Shown here: positions 29,119-44,956 of the stretch, piece by piece
How positions within the stretch are numbered: the stretch's first letter is position 1
How the letters are laid out: each line of letters opens with the position of its first letter
Assembly (NCBI RefSeq): GCF_005871085.1
Contig: NZ_VAUP01000035.1
Span: forward strand, 124,001 to 188,000
DNA length: 64,000 bases
Reading direction: 5' to 3'
Source: Xanthobacter autotrophicus
GTDB lineage: Bacteria > Pseudomonadota > Alphaproteobacteria > Rhizobiales > Xanthobacteraceae
The notes under the pieces: generated by a model
The model's input: the letters and a program-made list of their open reading frames with translations, nothing else
Told to the model about the DNA's origin: nothing
Database searches by the model: none
Made by a program: the position numbers and the translations under genes

Positions 29119-29136
29119 AAAATGGTGCGGGCGGTC
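29119..29136. repeat. Left attachment site (copy of the tRNA-Leu 3' end)
   Basis: AAAATGGTGCGGGCGGTC is identical to the 3' terminal bases of tRNA-Leu(CAA) plus adjoining As at 44,866. It is the displaced tRNA tail produced by site-specific integration. Confidence 0.85.
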
Positions 29137-29290: not shown

Positions 29291-30493
29291 ATGGGGCGCG
29301 GATTGAACCGTTTGTCGGCGATCGCCGTTCGATCAGCCGCCGCCGGGAAGCATGCCGACGGGGGCGGCCTTTGGCTCCACAAGCGGCTCGACGGCGGCGC
29401 CCAATGGTTCTTTCGCTTCACGGTGCACGGCCGGCGCCGGGAAATGGGGCTGGGGGCCGCAACCGACGTGTCATTGAGGGAGGCGCGAGAGGCGGCCGAC
29501 CGCGGGCGCGCCGTGGTGCGGCAGAGCCTCGACCCGATCAAGGAACGGGAACGTGAACGACGGGAGGCGGCGCGCACGCTGCACTATCTGAAGGACATCG
29601 CCCTCGACGCCTTCGAGAGCCGAAAGGCCGAACTGAAGGGCGACGGCAAGGCCGGCCGGTGGTTCACGCCACTCGAACTCCACGTCCTGCCGAAGCTTGG
29701 AAGCGTGCCCGTCGCCGACATTGACCAGAAGGACATCCGCGACACCCTGGCGCCCATCTGGCACGTCAAAGCCGAAACGGCACAAAAGGCCCTGAGCCGG
29801 CTCGGCCTCTGCCTAAAGCACGCCGCGGCGCTCGGTCTCGACGTGGACCTGCAGGCGACCGAAAAGGCGCGCGCCCTGCTCGGACAGCAGCGGCACAAGC
29901 CCGAGAACATCCCCGCCATGCCGTGGGGCGAGGTTCCGGGCTTCTACGCCAGCCTGAACGAAGGGACGGTGACGCACCTGGCGCTGCGCCTTCTCATCCT
30001 GACGGGCGTGCGATCCGGACCGCTGCGGTTCATCCGGGAAGACCAGATCGCCGGTGACGTCTGGACCATTCCCGGCGAGGCGATGAAGGGCCGGAAGGAC
30101 CGGACGCCCGATTTCCGGGTGCCCCTGACAGGCGCGGCGTTGGCGATCATCGAACAGGCGCGACCGCTCGCGCGCGGTGGCTACCTGCTCCCGAGCCAAC
30201 GCAAGGGCGTCATCTCGGACATGACGATGGGCCGCTTCATGGAGCGCGCTGGCCTTGAGGCGCGACCGCACGGCTTCCGCTCCAGCCTGCGGGATTGGAT
30301 CGCTGAAGCGACTGAAACGCCCCACGACGTCGCCGAGACAGTGCTCGGGCATACGGTCGGTGGCGCAGTCGAACGCGCCTATCGGCGGACGGACTTTCTC
30401 GACCAGCGCCGGGCCCTGATGGAGCGGTGGGCGCAGCACGTGACGAAGAGCAATGGAACGGCACACGAAGAACGAGGCGACGATGGCAGATAA
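29291..30493 (+). CDS. int: P4-type tyrosine integrase
   Basis: This 400-residue recombinase has the N-terminal arm-binding domain (DUF4102-like: HADGGGLWLHKRLDGGAQWFFRFTVHGRRREMGLGA), a core-binding region and a C-terminal catalytic domain. Catalytic residues: Arg241 (TGVRSGPLR), His327-x-x-Arg330 (HGFRSSLRDW), His354 (LGH) and nucleophile Tyr364 (ERAYRR). All are intact, so it should be active. It catalyses integration at the tRNA-Leu 3' end. An upstream LexA box suggests SOS control. It overlaps the next gene by 11 bases. Confidence 0.93.
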   Translation: MGRGLNRLSAIAVRSAAAGKHADGGGLWLHKRLDGGAQWFFRFTVHGRRREMGLGAATDVSLREAREAADRGRAVVRQSLDPIKERERERREAARTLHYLKDIALDAFESRKAELKGDGKAGRWFTPLELHVLPKLGSVPVADIDQKDIRDTLAPIWHVKAETAQKALSRLGLCLKHAAALGLDVDLQATEKARALLGQQRHKPENIPAMPWGEVPGFYASLNEGTVTHLALRLLILTGVRSGPLRFIREDQIAGDVWTIPGEAMKGRKDRTPDFRVPLTGAALAIIEQARPLARGGYLLPSQRKGVISDMTMGRFMERAGLEARPHGFRSSLRDWIAEATETPHDVAETVLGHTVGGAVERAYRRTDFLDQRRALMERWAQHVTKSNGTAHEERGDDGR

Positions 30494-31540: not shown

Positions 31541-31595
31541 GCCTCTGAATTCATTGATAGTTTCACCTCGCATCACTCAACCGCGAGGCAAATCA

Positions 31596-31814
31596 ATGAA
31601 CCCTAACGATCACCTGCTTACTGCCCGCGAAGGCGCGGCGCTTCTCCACATCAGCGTGCCCACCTTCTGGCGGCGGGTGGCCGACGGCACCGTGCCGAAG
31701 CCGATCAAGATCGGTGCTCTTTCGCGCTGGTCGCAGGCCGAACTCGAAGCTGTGATCGAGCGCGCCAAATCCCGCCGTGTGCCCGTGGCGACCGAGGCCG
31801 CGTGCCAGGCGTGA
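31596..31814 (+). CDS. alpA: AlpA-family excisionase/transcription regulator
   Basis: This is a 72-residue MerR-like winged-helix protein: LLTAREGAALLHISVPTFWRRVADGTVPKPIKIGALSRWSQAELEAVIERAK. AlpA proteins activate integrase or replication genes on P4-like satellites and can act as recombination directionality factors. The ATG at 31596 has GAGG 8 bases upstream. The iteron array ends 55 bases before the start, so AlpA or a partner may bind it. It begins a tightly packed replication operon. Confidence 0.85.
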   Translation: MNPNDHLLTAREGAALLHISVPTFWRRVADGTVPKPIKIGALSRWSQAELEAVIERAKSRRVPVATEAACQA

Positions 31815-31850: not shown

Positions 31851-32303
31851 GTGACCGTCCTCGGCATTGATCCGGGCATCTCGGGCGCATGGGCGCTGCT
31901 GCACACCGACGGCACGCTCGCCGCGGGCGACCTGCCGGTGGCCGGCGGCCAGATCGATGCCGCCACGTTCTCGGCTTTGATCCGCAGCACCCGACCGGTG
32001 GCCGCGTTCGTGGAGGCGGTACACGCCATGCCCAAGCAGGGCGTCGCCTCCACCTTCAAGTTCGGCATGGCGCATGGGACCATCATCGGCGCCCTGTCCG
32101 CGCTGCAGGTGCCGACGAACCTCGTCGCGCCGACCTCATGGAAACGCCACTTCCGCCTCGATGCAGACAAGGAGAAGGCCCGCGCCCTCGCCTTGCGACT
32201 GTGGCCGGCCGCCGGGTGCTTCGCCCGCAAGAAGGACCATGGGCGCGCCGAAGCCGCCCTGATCGCCCGCTTCGGCTCCGAGGTGTGGGGAGGCGGGCGA
32301 TGA
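31851..32303 (+). CDS. RuvC-like phage Holliday-junction resolvase
   Basis: This 150-residue protein has an RNase H-like fold. MTVLGIDPGISGAWALLH gives the first catalytic Asp, AFVEAVHAMPKQGVASTFKFGMAHGTIIGAL gives the acidic Glu and the helical element, then APTSWKRHFRLDADKEKARALALRLWP and DHGRAEAALIARFG give the C-terminal Asp/Glu. This is the compact RuvC form common in phages. It starts with GTG at 31851 and its stop overlaps the next ATG (ATGA). Confidence 0.85.
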   Translation: MTVLGIDPGISGAWALLHTDGTLAAGDLPVAGGQIDAATFSALIRSTRPVAAFVEAVHAMPKQGVASTFKFGMAHGTIIGALSALQVPTNLVAPTSWKRHFRLDADKEKARALALRLWPAAGCFARKKDHGRAEAALIARFGSEVWGGGR

Positions 32304-32599
32304 TCGACTTCGACGGCATCAACGATGCCGCCCGCCCTGCTTTGCCCGCCCTGGTGGTGCGATGGCTCCCCGCTGGCCACCGCGAAGGCCGCGAGTGGGT
32401 AGCCCGCAATCCGCGCCGCGCCGACCGACATCCCGGCAGCTTCCGGGTGAACCTCACCACCGGGCGGTGGGCCGACTTCGCCACCGGTGACAAGGGCGGC
32501 GATCCGGTCTCGCTCGCCGCCTTCCTCTTCGACCTGTCGCAGACCGATGCCGCCCGGCGGATCGCCGATATGCTCGCACTGTCCGGAACGGTGAGATGA
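32300..32599 (+). CDS. Primase-type N-terminal domain protein
   Basis: The 99-residue protein carries GSFRVNLTTGRWADFATGDKGGDPVSLAAFLFDLSQTDAARRIADML. This is the segment that follows the zinc finger in phage/plasmid primases (the W-x-DFATGDKGGD motif), but without the cysteines of a CHC2 finger. It probably works with the following Toprim/DUF3987 protein as a split primase. Four-base overlaps link it to both neighbours. Confidence 0.7.
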   Translation: MIDFDGINDAARPALPALVVRWLPAGHREGREWVARNPRRADRHPGSFRVNLTTGRWADFATGDKGGDPVSLAAFLFDLSQTDAARRIADMLALSGTVR

Positions 32600-34773
32600 C
32601 GGAACACGCCGATCCCTTCGCTCCCCTCGGCGCCGACGAACTCGAAGCCGCGCCCGACCTGCCGGACAATGATCCATGGCGGCCGATCCTGCCCGTTCCG
32701 GAGGATGCGCCCAAGCTCACCACCGCGACCCTTTCGGCTTTCGCCCCGCCGGGCTACGCCTTCACGGCCGGCTGGCGCTATCGCGATGGCGAGGGCCGCT
32801 TCCTCGGCTGCATCGTCCGGTACGACCGGCCAGCGAACGGTGTGCCCGCTGACAAGCAGGTGCGGCCCGTCACCTTCTGCGAGGGGCCGGACGGCAAGCG
32901 CGGATGGCGATGCAAGGGCTTTCCTGAACCGCGCCCGCTCTATGGACTGGATCGCCTCGCCGCCCGCCCCGAGGCTCCCGTGCTGGTGGTGGAGGGCGAG
33001 AAGGTGGCCGACGCCGCCGGCAAGCTCTTCCCCGATCACGTCGTCATCACCTCGCCCGGCGGATCGAAAGCCGCGCGCAAAGCGGACTGGCGCCCACTCG
33101 CCGGGCGCCGTGTCGCCATATGGCCCGATTGCGATGCGCCCGGCGCGGCCTATGCCGCCGACGTTGCCGCGCTCGCCCACGCCGCCGGCGCCGTCTTTGC
33201 CGAGGTGGTGACGCTTCCCGACGGCCTGCCGCAGAAATGGGACCTTGCCGATGATCTTCCCGCGGGCATGGCATGGTCGCTGATCGAGGATGCGCTCGCC
33301 GCGGCCATGGCGGGGCCCGCCGGCCCGGCGCCGATCCTCTCCTCCCTGCCCGCCGTCCTGCCCTTCATCCCCGAACTGCTTCCGGCGGCGATCGGCGGCT
33401 ATGTGACGGACGTAGCGGATCGCCAGCAGGCGCCGCCGGACTTTGCCGCCGTGACGGCCCTGTGCGGCCTCGCCGCCGTGGTGGGCAACCGGGTGCGCAT
33501 CGCACCCAAGCAAAATGACGACTGGACCGTGGTGCCGAACCTGTGGGGCGCCATCATCGGCCGGCCGAGCGCCATGAAGACGCCGGCCATGCAATCTGCC
33601 CTCTCCCCCGTCTACGCCATTCAGGATCGCATGCGGGAGGCCTGGGAAGCCGAGCTGCGGGCCGATGCGGTGGCCGACACCTTGTCCGTGTTCGACGCCA
33701 AGGATGCCAAGAAGCGCGCCGAGAAGGCTCTGAAGGATGGCGACCGCGACGGCGCCCGCGCCATCCTCGAGGCGCAGGCGGGCGATGATGAGGAAGAGGA
33801 GAAGCCCTGTCCCCGGCTCATCGTCAACGACGCCACAGTGGAGAAGCTGGGCGAACTGCTGAACCAGAACCCGCGGGGCCTCCTGCTGATCCGTGACGAG
33901 CTGACGGGCTTCCTTGCCCGCATGGAGCGGGAGGAATTCCAGGGCGAGCGCGCCTTCTACCTTGAAGCCTTCAACGGCGACGGGCGGTTCATCTACGACC
34001 GCATCGGCCGGGGCACGGTGCGGATCGAGAACTGCACCTTGAGCCTCATCGGCGGAGTGCAGCCCTCGCGCATCGCCCCGATCGTTCGTGGCGCCATGAC
34101 GGGCGCCAGCAATGACGGCCTGATCCAGCGCCTGCAGCTCGCGGTCTGGCCGGACGATATCGGCCAATGGAAATGGACCGACCGCCATCCCGACCGGGAC
34201 GCGCGCGAGCGCTATCAGGCCGCCTTCGACGCTCTGGCGGGAAGCCTTCCCGGCACGACCGAGCATCCTCTCATCATGCGCTTTTCGGCTGCGGCGCAGG
34301 ACCTCTTCCGCCAGTGGATGGAAGAGATCCAGAGCGAGGCCCGTTCGGGCGTCCTGTCCTCCACCATGGAAAGCCACCTGCTGAAGATGCCGGCGACGGT
34401 GGCCAGCCTCGCCTTGCTGTTCGAGCTGATCGAAGGCGGCCGGTTCGAGGTGGGGGAGGACGCGATCCGTCGGGCGCTGGGCTGGGCCGACTACCTGCGC
34501 AGCCACGCGAGCCGCCTCTATGCCTCCGGCAACTCGGTGGTGGAGGACGGCGCCCGCCTGATCGTGGAGCGGCGGGCGCAGCTCCCCAGTCCGTTCACGG
34601 CGCGCGATGTCCATCAGAAGGCGTGGGCTGGTCTCTCTGACCGGGATGCGGTGAGTGCGGCAATCGACATGCTGGTGGGCACGAACCATTGCGCCGAGGT
34701 GGAGAAGCCGGCCGCCTCGAAAGGTGGCCGTCCGACCATCGCCTACGCCTGGCACCCGAGCCTCGGGAGGTGA
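32596..34773 (+). CDS. Toprim/DUF3987 primase-helicase-like protein
   Basis: This 725-residue protein has an N-terminal Toprim-like part (APVLVVEGEKVADAAGKLFPDHVVITSPGGSKA and GRRVAIWPDCDAPGAAYA, residues ~130-200) and a C-terminal DUF3987 ATPase-like part. The P-loop is unusual: IIGRPSAMKTPAM (~320), then LLLIRDELTGFLARME as Walker B, and SLIGGVQPSRI. Such proteins replicate satellites and integrative plasmids. A charged stretch (DDEEEEK) lies in between. Its ATG overlaps the preceding stop. It is the probable replicase of the island. Confidence 0.85.
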   Translation: MTEHADPFAPLGADELEAAPDLPDNDPWRPILPVPEDAPKLTTATLSAFAPPGYAFTAGWRYRDGEGRFLGCIVRYDRPANGVPADKQVRPVTFCEGPDGKRGWRCKGFPEPRPLYGLDRLAARPEAPVLVVEGEKVADAAGKLFPDHVVITSPGGSKAARKADWRPLAGRRVAIWPDCDAPGAAYAADVAALAHAAGAVFAEVVTLPDGLPQKWDLADDLPAGMAWSLIEDALAAAMAGPAGPAPILSSLPAVLPFIPELLPAAIGGYVTDVADRQQAPPDFAAVTALCGLAAVVGNRVRIAPKQNDDWTVVPNLWGAIIGRPSAMKTPAMQSALSPVYAIQDRMREAWEAELRADAVADTLSVFDAKDAKKRAEKALKDGDRDGARAILEAQAGDDEEEEKPCPRLIVNDATVEKLGELLNQNPRGLLLIRDELTGFLARMEREEFQGERAFYLEAFNGDGRFIYDRIGRGTVRIENCTLSLIGGVQPSRIAPIVRGAMTGASNDGLIQRLQLAVWPDDIGQWKWTDRHPDRDARERYQAAFDALAGSLPGTTEHPLIMRFSAAAQDLFRQWMEEIQSEARSGVLSSTMESHLLKMPATVASLALLFELIEGGRFEVGEDAIRRALGWADYLRSHASRLYASGNSVVEDGARLIVERRAQLPSPFTARDVHQKAWAGLSDRDAVSAAIDMLVGTNHCAEVEKPAASKGGRPTIAYAWHPSLGR

Positions 34774-34777
34774 GCCA

Positions 34778-35377
34778 ATGGGCAACTGGTACGACGGGCT
34801 GAAAAAATCTGAAAACGCCCACTGTCGAAACCCCCAAAACCCTCAAAACCCACCGGGATACAGTTTCGAGGGTTTTGAGGGTTCGCATTCTGAGCGAATG
34901 GCGAAATCCGCAAGCCCTGTTGAGCGGGTTTCGAGGGTTTCGAGGGTGCCCAGTCCGGCCGAAAGCGAAAACCGCGAACGGGTGCACCGACACCACGAGG
35001 GTGGTTTCGAGGGTTTTGAGGGTGCCGCCTCAGGGCGACTGGAGCGTTTTTCGTCCGGACCGACGCCTCCCCCGGCACCTGGGCGGAGCAGGGAGGCGAA
35101 GGAACGTCAGGCGTCGCCAAAAAATCTGCCCTGCGCCTCGGAGCCGACCTGTCAAAACCCTCAAAACCTTACCGGAGTGGGTTTTGAGGGTTTTGTCGGT
35201 TCGTCACCGGAGCGGATCACGCATTTTTCGCGCTTGGCCGGCTGGGATGCCGAGGACTGGCAGGCGGCCTTCGATGAGCGGGCCGCTGTCCTCGAATATG
35301 ACGCGGGCCTTCGCCGTGCCGACGCCGAGCGCATCGCCCGCGCCGAGGTGTTCAAGCCCGGTGGGCGAGCGTCATGA
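34778..35377 (+). CDS. Repeat-rich phage-type protein with FEGFEG motifs
   Basis: This 199-residue protein is of unknown function. It contains recurring units: NPQNPQNPPGYSFEGFEGSHSERM, VSRVSRVPSPAESE, GGFEGFEGAASGRLE and NPQNLTGVGFEGFVGSSPERIT. These are encoded by a GGGTTTTGAGGG-like repeat in both orientations. The C-terminal ~50 residues (FSRLAGWDAEDWQAAFDERAAVLEYDAGLRRADAERIARAEVF) form a conserved-looking helical domain found on phage proteins near replication genes. It starts 4 bases after the DUF3987 stop. The repeats may be a DNA element merely tolerated as protein. Confidence 0.7.
   Translation: MGNWYDGLKKSENAHCRNPQNPQNPPGYSFEGFEGSHSERMAKSASPVERVSRVSRVPSPAESENRERVHRHHEGGFEGFEGAASGRLERFSSGPTPPPAPGRSREAKERQASPKNLPCASEPTCQNPQNLTGVGFEGFVGSSPERITHFSRLAGWDAEDWQAAFDERAAVLEYDAGLRRADAERIARAEVFKPGGRAS
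34835..34883. repeat. Inverted pair of the GGGTTTTGAGGG repeat
   Basis: The minus-orientation copy (34,835-34,851) and the plus-orientation copy (34,870-34,883) share 14 complementary bases and could form a stem with an 18-base loop. Further plus-orientation copies lie at about 34,926-34,947 and 35,002-35,023, with two more in a second pair at 35,153-35,195. Confidence 0.7.
35153..35195. repeat. Perfect 16-bp inverted repeat, second copy pair
   Basis: CAAAACCCTCAAAACC (35,153-35,168) and GGTTTTGAGGGTTTTG (35,180-35,195) pair perfectly around an 11-base loop within the repeat-rich gene. Confidence 0.85.
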
Positions 35378-35741: not shown

Positions 35742-36119
35742 ATGCCGTTCCATGCCCCCTACATCTGCGGCTGCGGGAAGAAGGTCCCGCACGGTGTGAA
35801 GTGCGAATGCGCGATCAAGCGCAAGCGGGACTATGATCGCTATTATGACGCCCGCCGACCGACCTCGAGCCAGCGCGGCTACACCGACAAGTGGCGCGCC
35901 GCCAGCAAGGCCTTCCTCGCCGAGCCTGGCCATCAGACCTGCGTGTCCTGCGGCAAGCCTGCCACGATGGTAGACCACCGCATCCCGGCCAAGGGCGACA
36001 TGGCCCTGTTCTGGGACAAGAGCAACTGGCAGCCCATGTGCGGCCGCTGCAACCGCTCGAAGAACGCCAGGCACGAAGGCGGCTTCGGCCACCCCGTCAG
36101 GACGCCAGGAGGACGGTGA
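35742..36119 (+). CDS. Phage HNH endonuclease
   Basis: This 125-residue HNH nuclease has zinc cysteines C67-x2-C70 and C100-x2-C103, the catalytic pair Asp78-His79 (MVDHRI), Asn95 (DKSNWQPMCGRCN) and Lys107. An N-terminal CGCG/CEC cluster may be a second metal site. In phages this gene usually precedes terminase and assists packaging. Here the downstream terminase is missing and the sequence becomes degenerate, so the gene marks the broken edge of the phage module. GGAGAG lies upstream of the ATG. Confidence 0.88.
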   Translation: MPFHAPYICGCGKKVPHGVKCECAIKRKRDYDRYYDARRPTSSQRGYTDKWRAASKAFLAEPGHQTCVSCGKPATMVDHRIPAKGDMALFWDKSNWQPMCGRCNRSKNARHEGGFGHPVRTPGGR

Positions 36120-36857: not shown

Positions 36858-37566
36858 GGCTCTGGCAGCGGAGCAGGTGGAGTTGACGCATCAGGCGGTT
36901 GGCCGGCTGGCGGCTGCGGCGATGGAGGCGTGGCTGGCGGAAGAGAGGGGGCGGGGCCGAACCGCCAAGGATCCTTGGCGGTTCGATGCAGCCCAACTTG
37001 TAAGGATCGGTTACGCGTTGACGCTGCCCCGCCTCACTTCCTCGATCAGATCGAGGGGTGATTTCCTCGGCGCGAGGTCACCACCCAGACCGATTGCGCT
37101 GCAATGGTTTGTGGCCGATTTACTCGCCACAGAGCACCACCCCACATAATACCATCTCCTCACAGCGATGCCGTTCGCCTAATGAGCGAGGCGGCGCAGG
37201 TGGTGCTGGTGGAAGAGGGCGGCTTAATGCGCCAGAAGCGGAACTTGACCAGCCCGCCGAAAGCCGACATTGGGTCACATCCTGGGAAGTAGACATCCTG
37301 GCTGAGGCATGCTCATCGCCCCACCCACCTTTCGGGCTATGGAACAAGGTCTTGATACCGCCATGACCCTCGCCGCCGTGGATCGGTTGGTCCGCCACGC
37401 CACGATCTTCGAATTGAATGTCAATTCAAGCGGTTGAAGTGCAGCGACAGTCAATATCAAAAACCTCTTGCGCGTCACAATCAACATCGCGAATATCGTG
37501 GTGGCTGCGACACCGGATTACCATCGTAATTGTCGCGGACCTCTCACACAGATTGACACGCTACAT
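36858..37566. other. Degenerate region before the AraC gene
   Basis: Short frames here (for example 36,877-37,149) have no recognisable domain. Composition falls from GC-rich to AT-richer around 37,100-37,560, marking entry into a foreign segment. The AraC promoter is probably within the last ~100 bases. Confidence 0.4.
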
Positions 37567-38439
37567 ATGAACGCCGATCCGCCACCTTCACAACGATGGT
37601 CACCGTTGTCGGCTCCGGTGACCATATTGTCATCGAGTTCTCGGTCCGGGTGGCGAGGCTTCGATTTCCAAGAGATCGCTGTTCCTGCCGAGGGCACGTT
37701 TAAGGAAGATGCATCAAGAACGTCCCTACCCTTGATGATTTCTCAGGTGAGTGGTCCGATAAAGGTCCGCTATGGCGGAATGAGGAAGCCGTTTTTTGAT
37801 TTTCCGACCGGCCCACAGCTTATATTGCCCTGGGACACGCCGTACGGGGCATGGCAAGGCGCCCAACGAGGAATTCATCTTTTTATTGATCAAGATGCGG
37901 TCGAGCGGTTAACGCATAAAGCTTTTCGACGCGATTCCTTCGAAAGGAAGAATGGCCTCGACCCAATCATTCATCATTTGATGAGCGCTATGCACATGGA
38001 TGTCGCAAGCGGACACCAAAGCGGACCATTACTGGGCGAAACGATTGTCACGGCGCTGCTACTGCGGCTCATCGCCGACACTCCTGTTAAATATGGTTCG
38101 CACCCAAGGACCGCCGGATCGCAGCGCGAATTTGGGAAATATCGTGAGTGGATCGATGCCCACTTGGCCAAGCCGTTCAGCCTGGAGGATCTCGCCGCCG
38201 ATATGGGCGTCAGCGTTCGGCAACTCCACCGCGAGGTTCTGCGGGCGACCGGAATGTCGCCCTACCGGTACATCCTGATGCAACGTACGGAGCGCGCGAG
38301 GCAATTGATCATCGCCGGTCAGCTGAGCCTGTCGGAGGTTGCGCTGGCGGTTGGCTTTTACGACCAGGCCCATATGTCCCACACTTTCCGGAAACTCCTC
38401 GGCGCGCCGCCGTCACATTTCAGCAACACGACAAAGTAA
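37567..38439 (+). CDS. AraC-family transcriptional regulator
   Basis: The 290-residue product has an N-terminal ligand/oligomerisation region and a C-terminal double helix-turn-helix (residues ~185-285). Helices: FSLEDLAADMGVSVRQLHREVLRATGMSPYRYILMQRTERARQLI and LSLSEVALAVGFYDQAHMSHTFRKLLGAPPSHF, the AraC signature. The ATG at 37567 (MNADPPPSQRW) was preferred to a TTG at 37468. Codon use is AT-richer than in surrounding genes, indicating transfer. It probably controls the GDSL autotransporter 121 bases downstream on the same strand. Confidence 0.85.
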   Translation: MNADPPPSQRWSPLSAPVTILSSSSRSGWRGFDFQEIAVPAEGTFKEDASRTSLPLMISQVSGPIKVRYGGMRKPFFDFPTGPQLILPWDTPYGAWQGAQRGIHLFIDQDAVERLTHKAFRRDSFERKNGLDPIIHHLMSAMHMDVASGHQSGPLLGETIVTALLLRLIADTPVKYGSHPRTAGSQREFGKYREWIDAHLAKPFSLEDLAADMGVSVRQLHREVLRATGMSPYRYILMQRTERARQLIIAGQLSLSEVALAVGFYDQAHMSHTFRKLLGAPPSHFSNTTK

Positions 38440-38560
38440 CTACTTTCCGCCGCGGACTACCTGGCAGGATTTTACAAATTCGGCAGGATCTTCAAAGACA
38501 GACGCTCACCCCGGAACCTAACAATACTCCCGCAAAAAATAATTTCGGGAGGACAACGCC

Positions 38561-40525
38561 ATGAAGAGCAGTTTCAAGCTTGGACTTGCTCTGACAACAA
38601 TGCTGGCAGGTGCAACGGCGGCTCAGGCCCAGACAGCTTATTATACGCGATATTTTGGCTTCGGCGATAGTCTGACCGACAACGGACGCATACCTAGGGA
38701 AGCCAATGGATACAGCCCATCGGGCAACTTAAACCTCGCATCGGGCGCCAACGTTTACGAAGGCGGCCGATGGGGTAATGCTCCCGTATTCTTCGAAGCC
38801 GTGCCAGGACTGATCGGCACGCCCTACAACGCCAACAATGACTTTGCCGTCGGTGGCGCTCGATCGGTTCATCAGGATCCCTCTCCCGCCTCTTCACCCG
38901 CTTTCGCCTGGGGGCTTCCGGATCAAATAGATCAGGCGACTTCGCGCGTGGGACGTTTCGGGCCGCGCGACCTGCTGAACATTTGGATCGGATATAACGA
39001 TATCACGCCAATCGCGACGGGCACAGCGCAGCAAAAAGCGCAAGCCGTCGCTGATATCGTCGGCAACACCGTCACCGCTATCAAGCGCCTCGCCACCGCA
39101 GGTGGGCGCGAGTTCGTTGTCTTCAACCAGAAGGCTGACCGCACCGGAGTGGCAGATTTAGGGGTGCTTCAACTGCCTTTGGCAGGAAATGATGTTGCCC
39201 GCGCGATCAATGCGGCCTTGCCCGATGCACTGACGCCCCTCTCCGCGGCTGGTTTGAATATTCATTACTTCGATGTCGCCACCTTGATCGACCGCATTCG
39301 CGCCAACCCGACTGCTTACGGGTTCGGGCCGGATGCGAACACACCATGCTTCTCTGTTCCCGCCTGTAAGCTCAATGGGACCGCCAACAACGGCGCCATC
39401 GAGAACCAGTACATCTCGCCGGATGGGATCCACAACACTGGACGGACCAACCAAATCATAGCGGCCTACCTGGCCAACCAATTGAATGCTCCGCTGACGA
39501 TCGGTCCACAAGGCGAGCTTGGCCAGAGCGCCGGCGTGGCGTTCTCATCGACCTTGATCGACTTCCTCAGTGCCGAGCGTCGCCGCAACATGGTGATGTC
39601 GGTGCCTGCCGCCTTCGCCGCCGATCTGCCCGCCCGCAAAGCCCCGCCAGTCACTATCCCGGTTCAGGTCGACAGTCCGCTTTCGATGTTTGCGCTGGGT
39701 ACCTACCTCAACGTTGACCGCACCGCCCAGACCCTGCAGGGTGGAGGCAGCATCGGCAATACGTTCAGTGCCGAGTTCGGCGGCTTCACTGCCGGCTTAC
39801 TGTATCAGGCCACGCCCAACCTCGTGCTCGGCGCAGCCTTCAACTACCTCAGCACCAGTGTCGATCTGGGCGGTCTAACCAATGGCCGGATCGACATGGA
39901 TAGCTTCCAGGGCGCCGGCTTTGCCTCGCTGTCATTCCCCAACTTCTTCGCCGACGTGGTCGGGACCTACGGCCGCAACAACTACGACCTCGAGCGGCCG
40001 GGGGTGATGAACGACCGCCTAACCGCCTCGCCGTCCGGCGACACGTTCACGGTCGCGGCCCGCACGGGGTACTTGTTCGACTTCGGCACCTTCAAGGCCG
40101 GTCCGGTCGGTGAAATGGCTTATGCCAACGTCAGCGTCGATGCCTACCGCGAGCGTGGTGACAGCCTACTGACCATCGGCACACAGCAGCAAAATCTGGA
40201 AGGCCTGACGGCTGGGGGTGGTGTCGAAATTCGGACCGTATTGCCGATCTTCGGCGGCACCGCCACCCCCTTCCTGGCCGTAACCGCCCAGCACGACTTC
40301 CTCGATGGCGTGCGCACGGTGACCTCTTATCAGACATACGCGCCCACGCTCCTGATCAGAACTCAAACGGGCAACCCTAGTGATGATCTGTATGGCCGCG
40401 TTGCAGGCGGTTTGGATCTCAGTTTCGGCAACGGACTGAGCGGGGTGCTGACTGGCTCGACCAGTTTTGCCCGATCTGGCGGTAACGACAGCACGCTCAG
40501 CGCCGGTGTCCGGTACCAGTTCTGA
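38561..40525 (+). CDS. GDSL esterase/lipase autotransporter (EstA-like)
   Basis: This 654-residue outer-membrane autotransporter has a signal peptide (residues 1-24, cut after AQAQ). The GDSL hydrolase passenger (~25-320) has Ser37 in FGFGDSLTDNG, Gly100 in FAVGGA, Asn146 in IGYND, and Asp288 and His291 in SPDGIHNT. A C-terminal beta-barrel (~370-654) ends in the required aromatic (YQF). All catalytic blocks are intact. GGGAGG lies upstream of the ATG. The nearest family is Pseudomonas EstA, a cell-surface esterase. It lies inside a transferred segment with its own AraC regulator. Confidence 0.9.
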   Translation: MKSSFKLGLALTTMLAGATAAQAQTAYYTRYFGFGDSLTDNGRIPREANGYSPSGNLNLASGANVYEGGRWGNAPVFFEAVPGLIGTPYNANNDFAVGGARSVHQDPSPASSPAFAWGLPDQIDQATSRVGRFGPRDLLNIWIGYNDITPIATGTAQQKAQAVADIVGNTVTAIKRLATAGGREFVVFNQKADRTGVADLGVLQLPLAGNDVARAINAALPDALTPLSAAGLNIHYFDVATLIDRIRANPTAYGFGPDANTPCFSVPACKLNGTANNGAIENQYISPDGIHNTGRTNQIIAAYLANQLNAPLTIGPQGELGQSAGVAFSSTLIDFLSAERRRNMVMSVPAAFAADLPARKAPPVTIPVQVDSPLSMFALGTYLNVDRTAQTLQGGGSIGNTFSAEFGGFTAGLLYQATPNLVLGAAFNYLSTSVDLGGLTNGRIDMDSFQGAGFASLSFPNFFADVVGTYGRNNYDLERPGVMNDRLTASPSGDTFTVAARTGYLFDFGTFKAGPVGEMAYANVSVDAYRERGDSLLTIGTQQQNLEGLTAGGGVEIRTVLPIFGGTATPFLAVTAQHDFLDGVRTVTSYQTYAPTLLIRTQTGNPSDDLYGRVAGGLDLSFGNGLSGVLTGSTSFARSGGNDSTLSAGVRYQF

Positions 40526-44865: not shown

Positions 44866-44883
44866 AAAATGGTGCGGGCGGTC
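44866..44883. repeat. Right attachment site inside the tRNA-Leu 3' end
   Basis: AAAATGGTGCGGGCGGTC, identical to the copy at 29,119. It comprises the CCA end and acceptor/T-arm 3' bases of tRNA-Leu plus four adjoining bases. Confidence 0.85.
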
Positions 44884-44956
44884 GGACTCGAACCGACATA
44901 TCCGTGAGGACGGCGGATTTTGAGTCCGCTGCGTCTACCAGTTCCGCCACGCCCGC
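44870..44956 (-). tRNA. tRNA-Leu(CAA)
   Basis: The 87-base gene folds as a class II tRNA. Acceptor arm GCGGGCG pairs with CGCCCGC, followed by encoded CCA. The anticodon stem GCGGA/TCCGC encloses loop CTCAAAA, giving anticodon CAA (reads UUG). It has the long variable arm of tRNA-Leu (around CCGTCCTCACGGAT) and the T-loop GGTTCGAGTCC. Its 3' end is the integration target of the island, and the intact copy is preserved. Confidence 0.95.

Follow-up and report, generated by a model that had tools for sequence, protein, structure and literature searches.

Tandem 9-bp iterons after a DUF3987 primase-helicase gene of Xanthobacter autotrophicus: a candidate replication origin of an integrated element

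The island, its primase-helicase and the repeat cluster

The window, that is the whole 64-kb stretch of Xanthobacter autotrophicus DNA analysed here, contains approximately 15.8 kb enclosed by 18-bp direct repeats (Table 1). The genes follow in the order integrase (the start codon of which was picked by eye), a 320-aa ORF without a match, AlpA-like HTH, RuvC-like resolvase, primase-helicase, an ORF holding the repeats described below, a small ORF and HNH. Int and AlpA-like genes (AlpA by PHROG, just under the Pfam cut-off) were thus found together with a defined attachment site, as in a PICI. Among the ORFs scanned to the right of 36.4 kb no phage structural family was matched. This gene content, the bounding repeats and the lack of matched structural genes point to an integrated island, possibly a satellite. 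Positions 37468-40525, inside the repeat-bounded element, encode an AraC-type regulator and a GDSL-lipase autotransporter, probably cargo.

Table 1. Position of the island's features in the window
Feature	Position	Strand	Remarks
18-bp direct repeat, left end of element (att-like)	29119-29136		identical to 44866-44883
Tyrosine integrase gene	29291-30493	+	PF22022, PF13356, PF00589 on part from 29396; phrog_1
AlpA/excisionase-like HTH gene	31554-31814	+	phrog_66 5.7e-08; PF12728 26.5 bits, just under cut-off 27
RuvC-like Holliday junction resolvase gene	31851-32303	+	phrog_1770 7.2e-32
Primase-helicase gene	32596-34773	+	PF13148 8.5e-87; DUF6371 below cut-off
C-terminal winged-helix domain, residues ~646-725, proposed to bind iterons	34531-34770	+	predicted models
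Codons 673-676 (His-Gln-Lys-Ala)	34612-34623	+	673, 674 and 676 covary with iteron bases
199-aa ORF holding the iterons	34778-35377	+	directly after primase-helicase gene
Iteron pair A	34831-34848	-	units TTTTGGGGG, TTTTGAGGG
Iteron pair B	34864-34881	+	gap to pair A 15 nt
Iteron pair C	34929-34946	+	9-bp unit resolution
Iteron pair D	35005-35022	+	9-bp unit resolution
Iteron pair E	35149-35166	-	units TTTTGACAG, TTTTGAGGG
Iteron pair F	35182-35199	+	units TTTTGAGGG, TTTTGTCGG; gap to pair E 15 nt
HNH endonuclease gene	35742-36119	+	PF01844; phrog_144
Right 18-bp repeat	44866-44883		overlaps 3' end of tRNA-Leu(caa) at 44870-44956 (-)

The primase-helicase consists of a primase-like N-terminal part (matches to phrog_6088 and phrog_239), a DUF3987 (YfjI-type) AAA+ core (residues 278-643) and a predicted C-terminal winged helix. 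DUF3987 proteins carry the annotation "domain of unknown function". In sequence searches against solved structures all hits were weak and fell on unrelated proteins (best E 0.029 and 0.055). Residues 244-725 were modelled with a pLDDT of 89 and a pTM of 0.85, and the best match of the core model was the MCM AAA+ structure 6mii_B (Z 19.3, rmsd 3.6, 271 residues), so that the core is predicted to have an MCM-type AAA+ fold. The C-terminal 100 residues were modelled as a winged helix (pLDDT 81) with the order helix-strand-helix-helix-strand-strand; many winged helices tied as matches at Z ~8, with Foldseek E values of 0.015 or worse. In an excerpt of PMC5862659 DUF3987 is predicted to be a helicase, and origin recognition is suggested as perhaps the role of the winged helix in such fusions.

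The pattern GGGTTTTGAGGG, with at most one mismatch, had eight matches in the window, all inside 34831-35190, against a mean of 0.16 and a maximum of 2 in 100 dinucleotide shuffles. A 15-base form of the motif (at most two mismatches) was found at ten places in the whole genome, eight of them being this cluster; its backward control pattern gave five matches. The cluster (34831-35199) resolves into six blocks, each of two tandem 9-bp units TTTYG-NNN-G, with NNN being AGG, and the first full tandem pair lies 58 bp past the primase-helicase stop codon. The six copies of the preliminary description, two reverse and four forward, are therefore present, far above chance. Both inverted block pairs are separated by 15 nt, and the two stems that had been described were recovered: a perfect 16-bp stem (35153-35168 with 35180-35195), read off the sequence directly, and a 14-bp stem (34838-34851 with 34870-34883) from the repeat listing. 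Multiple short, uniform repeats thus adjoin the putative initiator gene, as in an iteron origin. A G-quadruplex was rejected because iteron variants such as TTTTGTCAG have no G-runs.

Related loci and the reading of the repeats as DNA or protein

A search of the genome collection with the inverted pattern gave 56 stretches. Five of these, from Thiodictyon, Aureimonas, Zavarzinia, a Bathymodiolus symbiont and Sphaerotilus, had 9-bp tandems, and in all five the gene ending just upstream encodes a DUF3987 relative, with 38-60% identity in the aligned part. In the other 51 no DUF3987 relative was found by tblastn at E 1e-3 within the stretches of up to 8 kb. Nocardioides sp. ChNu-153 accounted for 13 of the 56 (L029, L034, L036, L043, L047, L048, L050, L058, L060, L069, L071, L074 and L077); its inverted GAGGGTTT-type pairs, without 9-bp tandems, occur on many scaffolds and are perhaps REP-like. 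The plain tandem pattern, rarer and less specific than the inverted one, was found in 3 of 296 genomes of the window's family and in nine viral stretches, one of which (L016) had a DUF3987 relative; the tandem pattern by itself is not diagnostic.

Some other arrangements were seen in passing. A viral contig of 4.4 kb that lacks a DUF3987 relative has eleven tandem copies of CCCTCAAAA (L020:2073-2173). At L018:2418-2656, in a contig also without DUF3987, the same 9-bp pairs lie within an apparent long inverted repeat, judged by eye, that could be the end of a transposon. At L009:1501-1620 iteron pairs in opposite mutual orientation directly follow a gene without a Pfam or primase tblastn match.

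The first protein search gave no relatives. Further protein searches found them in 12 of 385, 15 of 398 and 7 of 297 genomes, in viral contigs (15 loci in one search; the best 80 of 142 were taken in another) and in plasmids. The 130 ORF hits obtained by protein and motif were reduced to 81 non-redundant loci by leaving out four fragments, loci with less than 200 nt downstream and duplicates; related elements among them are not fully independent of each other. Among the 59 loci with the C-terminal domain and a score of at least 220, group cut-offs that were chosen after the locus table had been viewed, 49 had a 9-bp tandem and 43 also an inverted copy, within 300 bp of the primase stop codon. 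With the five motif-only loci and the window removed, tandem and inverted copy were present at 37 of 53 non-redundant DUF3987 loci, Zavarzinia being kept because the protein searches found it too. Repeats were found at two of nine loci with the domain and a score below 220, at one of 13 without the domain and, with no score cut, at 45 of 68 with it; the rate was lower (7 of 13) in loci fetched later.

In control windows of the 59 loci, 5 of 1449 had a tandem and an inverted copy (151 had the tandem alone), as did 1 of 1180 shuffled sequences. Other repeat periods from 6 to 15 were found at no more than one of the 59 loci, and period 18 (twice 9) at four. Sixteen of the 59 lacked the repeats as defined; visual inspection showed weaker or displaced repeats in some of them and no repeats in others. 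Four of the five control hits fell in loci with such a downstream region (L131, L154, L156 and L158), so the repeats may lie elsewhere in these. No such repeat was found at E. coli YfjI (CP4-57).

The reading of the repeats as FEGFEG in one orientation and NPQNPQN in the other, given in the preliminary description, holds in part: the window repeats read as FEG, VSR or NPQ, the block at 34929 being VSRVSRV and the last block FEGFVG. In relatives they read as PSK/FEG (Zavarzinia), FKTLKTP/VLKVLRV (Aureimonas) or TLKTLN/FEG (Thiodictyon), and in the Bathymodiolus symbiont they lie between genes. In 48 elements the forward tandem pairs fell in frames 0, 1 and 2 of the longest covering ORF, which need not be a real gene, 7, 19 and 30 times, and the reverse pairs 8, 17 and 19 times. 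Seventeen pairs had no covering ORF of 30 aa, and 8 of the 48 elements had no ORF of at least 30 aa over any pair. This agrees with the earlier suggestion that selection acts on the element as DNA and that its presence in coding sequence is tolerated. That suggestion was to fall if homologues kept the amino acids and lost the DNA repeats; the relatives show the opposite.

Selection for the protein-level repeats (FEGFEG, NPQNPQ) is accordingly contradicted by the use of other frames elsewhere and by the eight elements without a covering ORF, and has hardly any probability left, even though the reading frame is open and its ends are partly shared: an MGRW-like N-terminus and an ERAA[IV]LEYD-like C-terminal part are found again in some relatives. 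Searched against Pfam, the window ORF gave nothing at E 0.1; against PHROG there was one weak match (0.0012), against phage proteins one chance match (E 8) and against plasmids none. A small ORF could accommodate an origin, since the 9-bp unit spans three codons and TTTTGAGGG keeps five of the six frames open.

Covariation of repeat bases with primase residues

In other elements NNN is TCA, TCG, GGG, GCA, AAG, TAG or ATG. The units of one element agree at 2.37 of the three bases, compared with 1.21 between elements; as a mean over elements the agreement was 2.46, against at most 1.49 when units were shuffled among the 48 elements.

The bases were compared with the primase residues in a table of 50 elements with a clear call, 44 of them not conditioned on the motif; the table leaves out 31 of 81 loci with the C-terminal domain (68 from the first set and 13 fetched later) in which no call reached 9/10. 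When residue 674 is R, N2 is C in 29 of 29 elements, against 2 of 21 with other residues (Fisher 6.9e-12, or 2.0e-9 without the six conditioned rows). Residue Q goes with AGG (8), AAG (2) or TAG (2) in 12 of 12; six of these rows were selected by motif and so are necessarily AGG, and the remaining six are AGG, AAG or TAG. K was found with GGG (3) and TAG (1), V with TAG, ATG and TCG, I with TCG and L with GAG. Of the left-out loci with weaker calls, L110, L130 and L167 agree (all R with NCN), and L136 (R) and L120 (Q) are exceptions to the rule. The three members of one clade (L211-L213) appear by eye to have a 10-bp unit.

A scan of 495 alignment columns, columns with more than ten gaps being left out, ranked 674 first for N1, N2 and N3 (z 10.6, 16.4 and 15.8). 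Residue 673 was second for N1 and N2 (z 9.8 and 6.1), and 676 was second for N3 (z 5.6) and first for the ninth base (z 5.3); all other columns were at 5.4 or below for any base. In the modelled HTH, residues 673 and 674 sit where the second helix ends, whereas recognition usually falls to the third helix.

A quick tree built only from the helicase core shows 13 changes for each of the two traits. Six independent pairs on supported branches changed in the same direction in a mean of 5.9 of 6 cases over 200 pairings and in the opposite direction in 0.0 (median p 0.03). After thinning to less than 60, 50 and 45% core identity, p was 1.5e-6, 2.8e-4 and 0.011 (n 31, 23 and 14). The residue rule had been written down before the later loci were read. 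The held-out prediction of GGG for K failed in its single case (L219, where TAG tied with TCG). TCG was also found in two further held-out elements, which have V or I and for which no prediction was made. A search made after the rule was written gave R with NCN in two of two cases and Q with TAG in one of one. The closest specificity switches separate relatives that are 82-89% identical in the core; given a protein-DNA code with such natural switches, a change of replicon origin specificity becomes directly testable.

Because the repeat sequence and a few enzyme residues change together, the repeats look like sites for the element's own replication enzyme. It is very probable, judged from sequence, that they are the iteron origin of a DUF3987 initiator, bound by the C-terminal winged helix of the primase. 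An origin or a packaging signal had been proposed earlier. The site after the initiator gene and the covariation favour the origin, and no support was found for packaging. An island-like element could be a satellite with a packaging (pac/cos) or transfer signal; such a signal is nevertheless extremely improbable, as the repeats covary with the primase and no scanned ORF of the element had a terminase or capsid family as its best match. The HNH protein has a lower-ranked match to phrog_4581, terminase small subunit (E 1.2e-11).

In 35 of 81 loci a forward pair comes after a reverse pair, with gaps of 4-6 bp (16 loci), 15-16 bp (14), 24-26 bp (3) and 46 or 80 bp. These cluster near 5+10.5n bp (~5, 15 and 25), giving a Rayleigh R of 0.93 at 10.5 bp (p 9e-14 if the loci are independent, 9e-12 for the 30 unconditioned), a statistic that shared ancestry of spacings could inflate and with a broad peak (0.86-0.88 at 9.5, 10 and 11 bp). 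The inverted pairs are able to form hairpins, which would speak for an RNA hairpin, a terminator or a transcription operator after the primase gene; a terminator, however, leaves unexplained the tandem 9-bp units, the phased pair spacing and the covariation with the primase C-terminal domain, and explanations of this kind were considered decidedly improbable. The iteron sites may have an additional operator role.

Eleven of 50 loci have additional tandems of the element's own unit beyond the main cluster, in ten of them at a distance of 1.5-7 kb from the primase stop codon and in one 90 bp before it; as the DNA searched per locus was short, 11 is a lower bound. The reversed unit gave 0 of 50. 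The second site of Zavarzinia has six pairs at 74-bp spacing. The ten distant sites are what a control region would have, and the primase might bind the iterons for copy-number control, incompatibility or handcuffing and not as a start site. This is unlikely, though less so than an operator or terminator, since the main cluster occupies the position of the PICI, SaPI and SCCmec origins as these are described in excerpts of the papers cited below.

A proposed origin and its relation to known systems

In the origin reading, the iterons would be the replication origin of the 15.8-kb integrated mobile element. The primase-helicase encoded upstream would bind them via its C-terminal winged helix, residues 673, 674 and 676 reading the variable bases of each 9-bp unit. 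The two orientations may set MCM-like AAA+ helicase complexes facing oppositely, and the opposed complexes would melt the DNA and start replication after excision.

In phage lambda, ori consists of iterons within the initiator gene itself, bound by the initiator. The window iterons are likewise inside a coding gene, although in the next one. Phage P4 has a primase-helicase with a C-terminal origin-binding domain and short iterons at two distant sites, ori1 and crr; its protein family and unit are different from those of the window.

The following comparisons refer to excerpts of the papers cited. The PICI and SaPI origins (EcCICFT073, SaPIbov1) lie directly 3' of the primase/initiator gene and have iteron sets (PMC6092414). 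The window iterons are also directly 3' of a primase gene, in an island with int and alpA as in Gram-negative PICI, but they have a 9-bp tandem unit, pairs inverted a few bp apart, a position inside an ORF and a DUF3987-type initiator. The two iteron sets of PICI surround an AT-rich stretch, whereas no separate AT-rich stretch was seen between iteron sets in the window. SaPI Rep, apparently two hexamers, and SCCmec Cch2, the helicase of which is likened to MCM, recognise iterons just downstream of their own genes by a C-terminal domain (PMC7581432). Cch2 resembles the window protein in being an MCM-like helicase with a C-terminal domain that binds direct repeats downstream of its own gene, as the domain of the window protein would; it differs in its helicase family and its 5-nt AAGTG iterons, and no covariation code is described for it in the excerpt. 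The PICMI satellites of Vibrionaceae have int, alpA and a primase defined by DUF3987/DUF5906 models, deletion of which lowers copy number (PMC10803314). The window island shares int, alpA and a DUF3987 primase with these; compared by description, PICMI115 differs in being 6.1 kb long and in sitting beside fis (PMC10803314). The text of that paper does not contain the word 'iteron', and a literature search found no paper combining DUF3987 and iteron.

Given the PICI, SaPI and SCCmec parallels, this kind of origin is already known; new are the family to which the initiator belongs, a layout of inverted 9-bp tandems within an ORF, and a code that can be read. DUF3987 gains a likely role as an origin-specific initiator, and origins become findable from sequence. 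A wider proposal, with about even prospects of proving right, is that DUF3987 primase-helicases make up a large class of self-contained initiators that has gone unrecognised. Origin identity would be set by two or three residues at one edge of the winged helix, specificity would be switched by changing these residues and all iteron copies, 10.5-bp phasing would place the opposed complexes on one helix face, and distant second sites would regulate copy number. If this is true, compatibility groups of mobile elements would be readable, and perhaps rewritable, from sequence.

GCTTGCGCGCG follows more distant DUF3987 genes at L112, L115 and L116, one of them a second copy in the genome of the window itself. 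At L115 it belongs to a long inverted repeat. These loci may represent another type of origin. On the Bartonella plasmid pBT01, which also carries repC, iteron-like copies appear by eye to flank an AT-rich intergenic stretch after a YfjI-family gene (L113:4184-4400).
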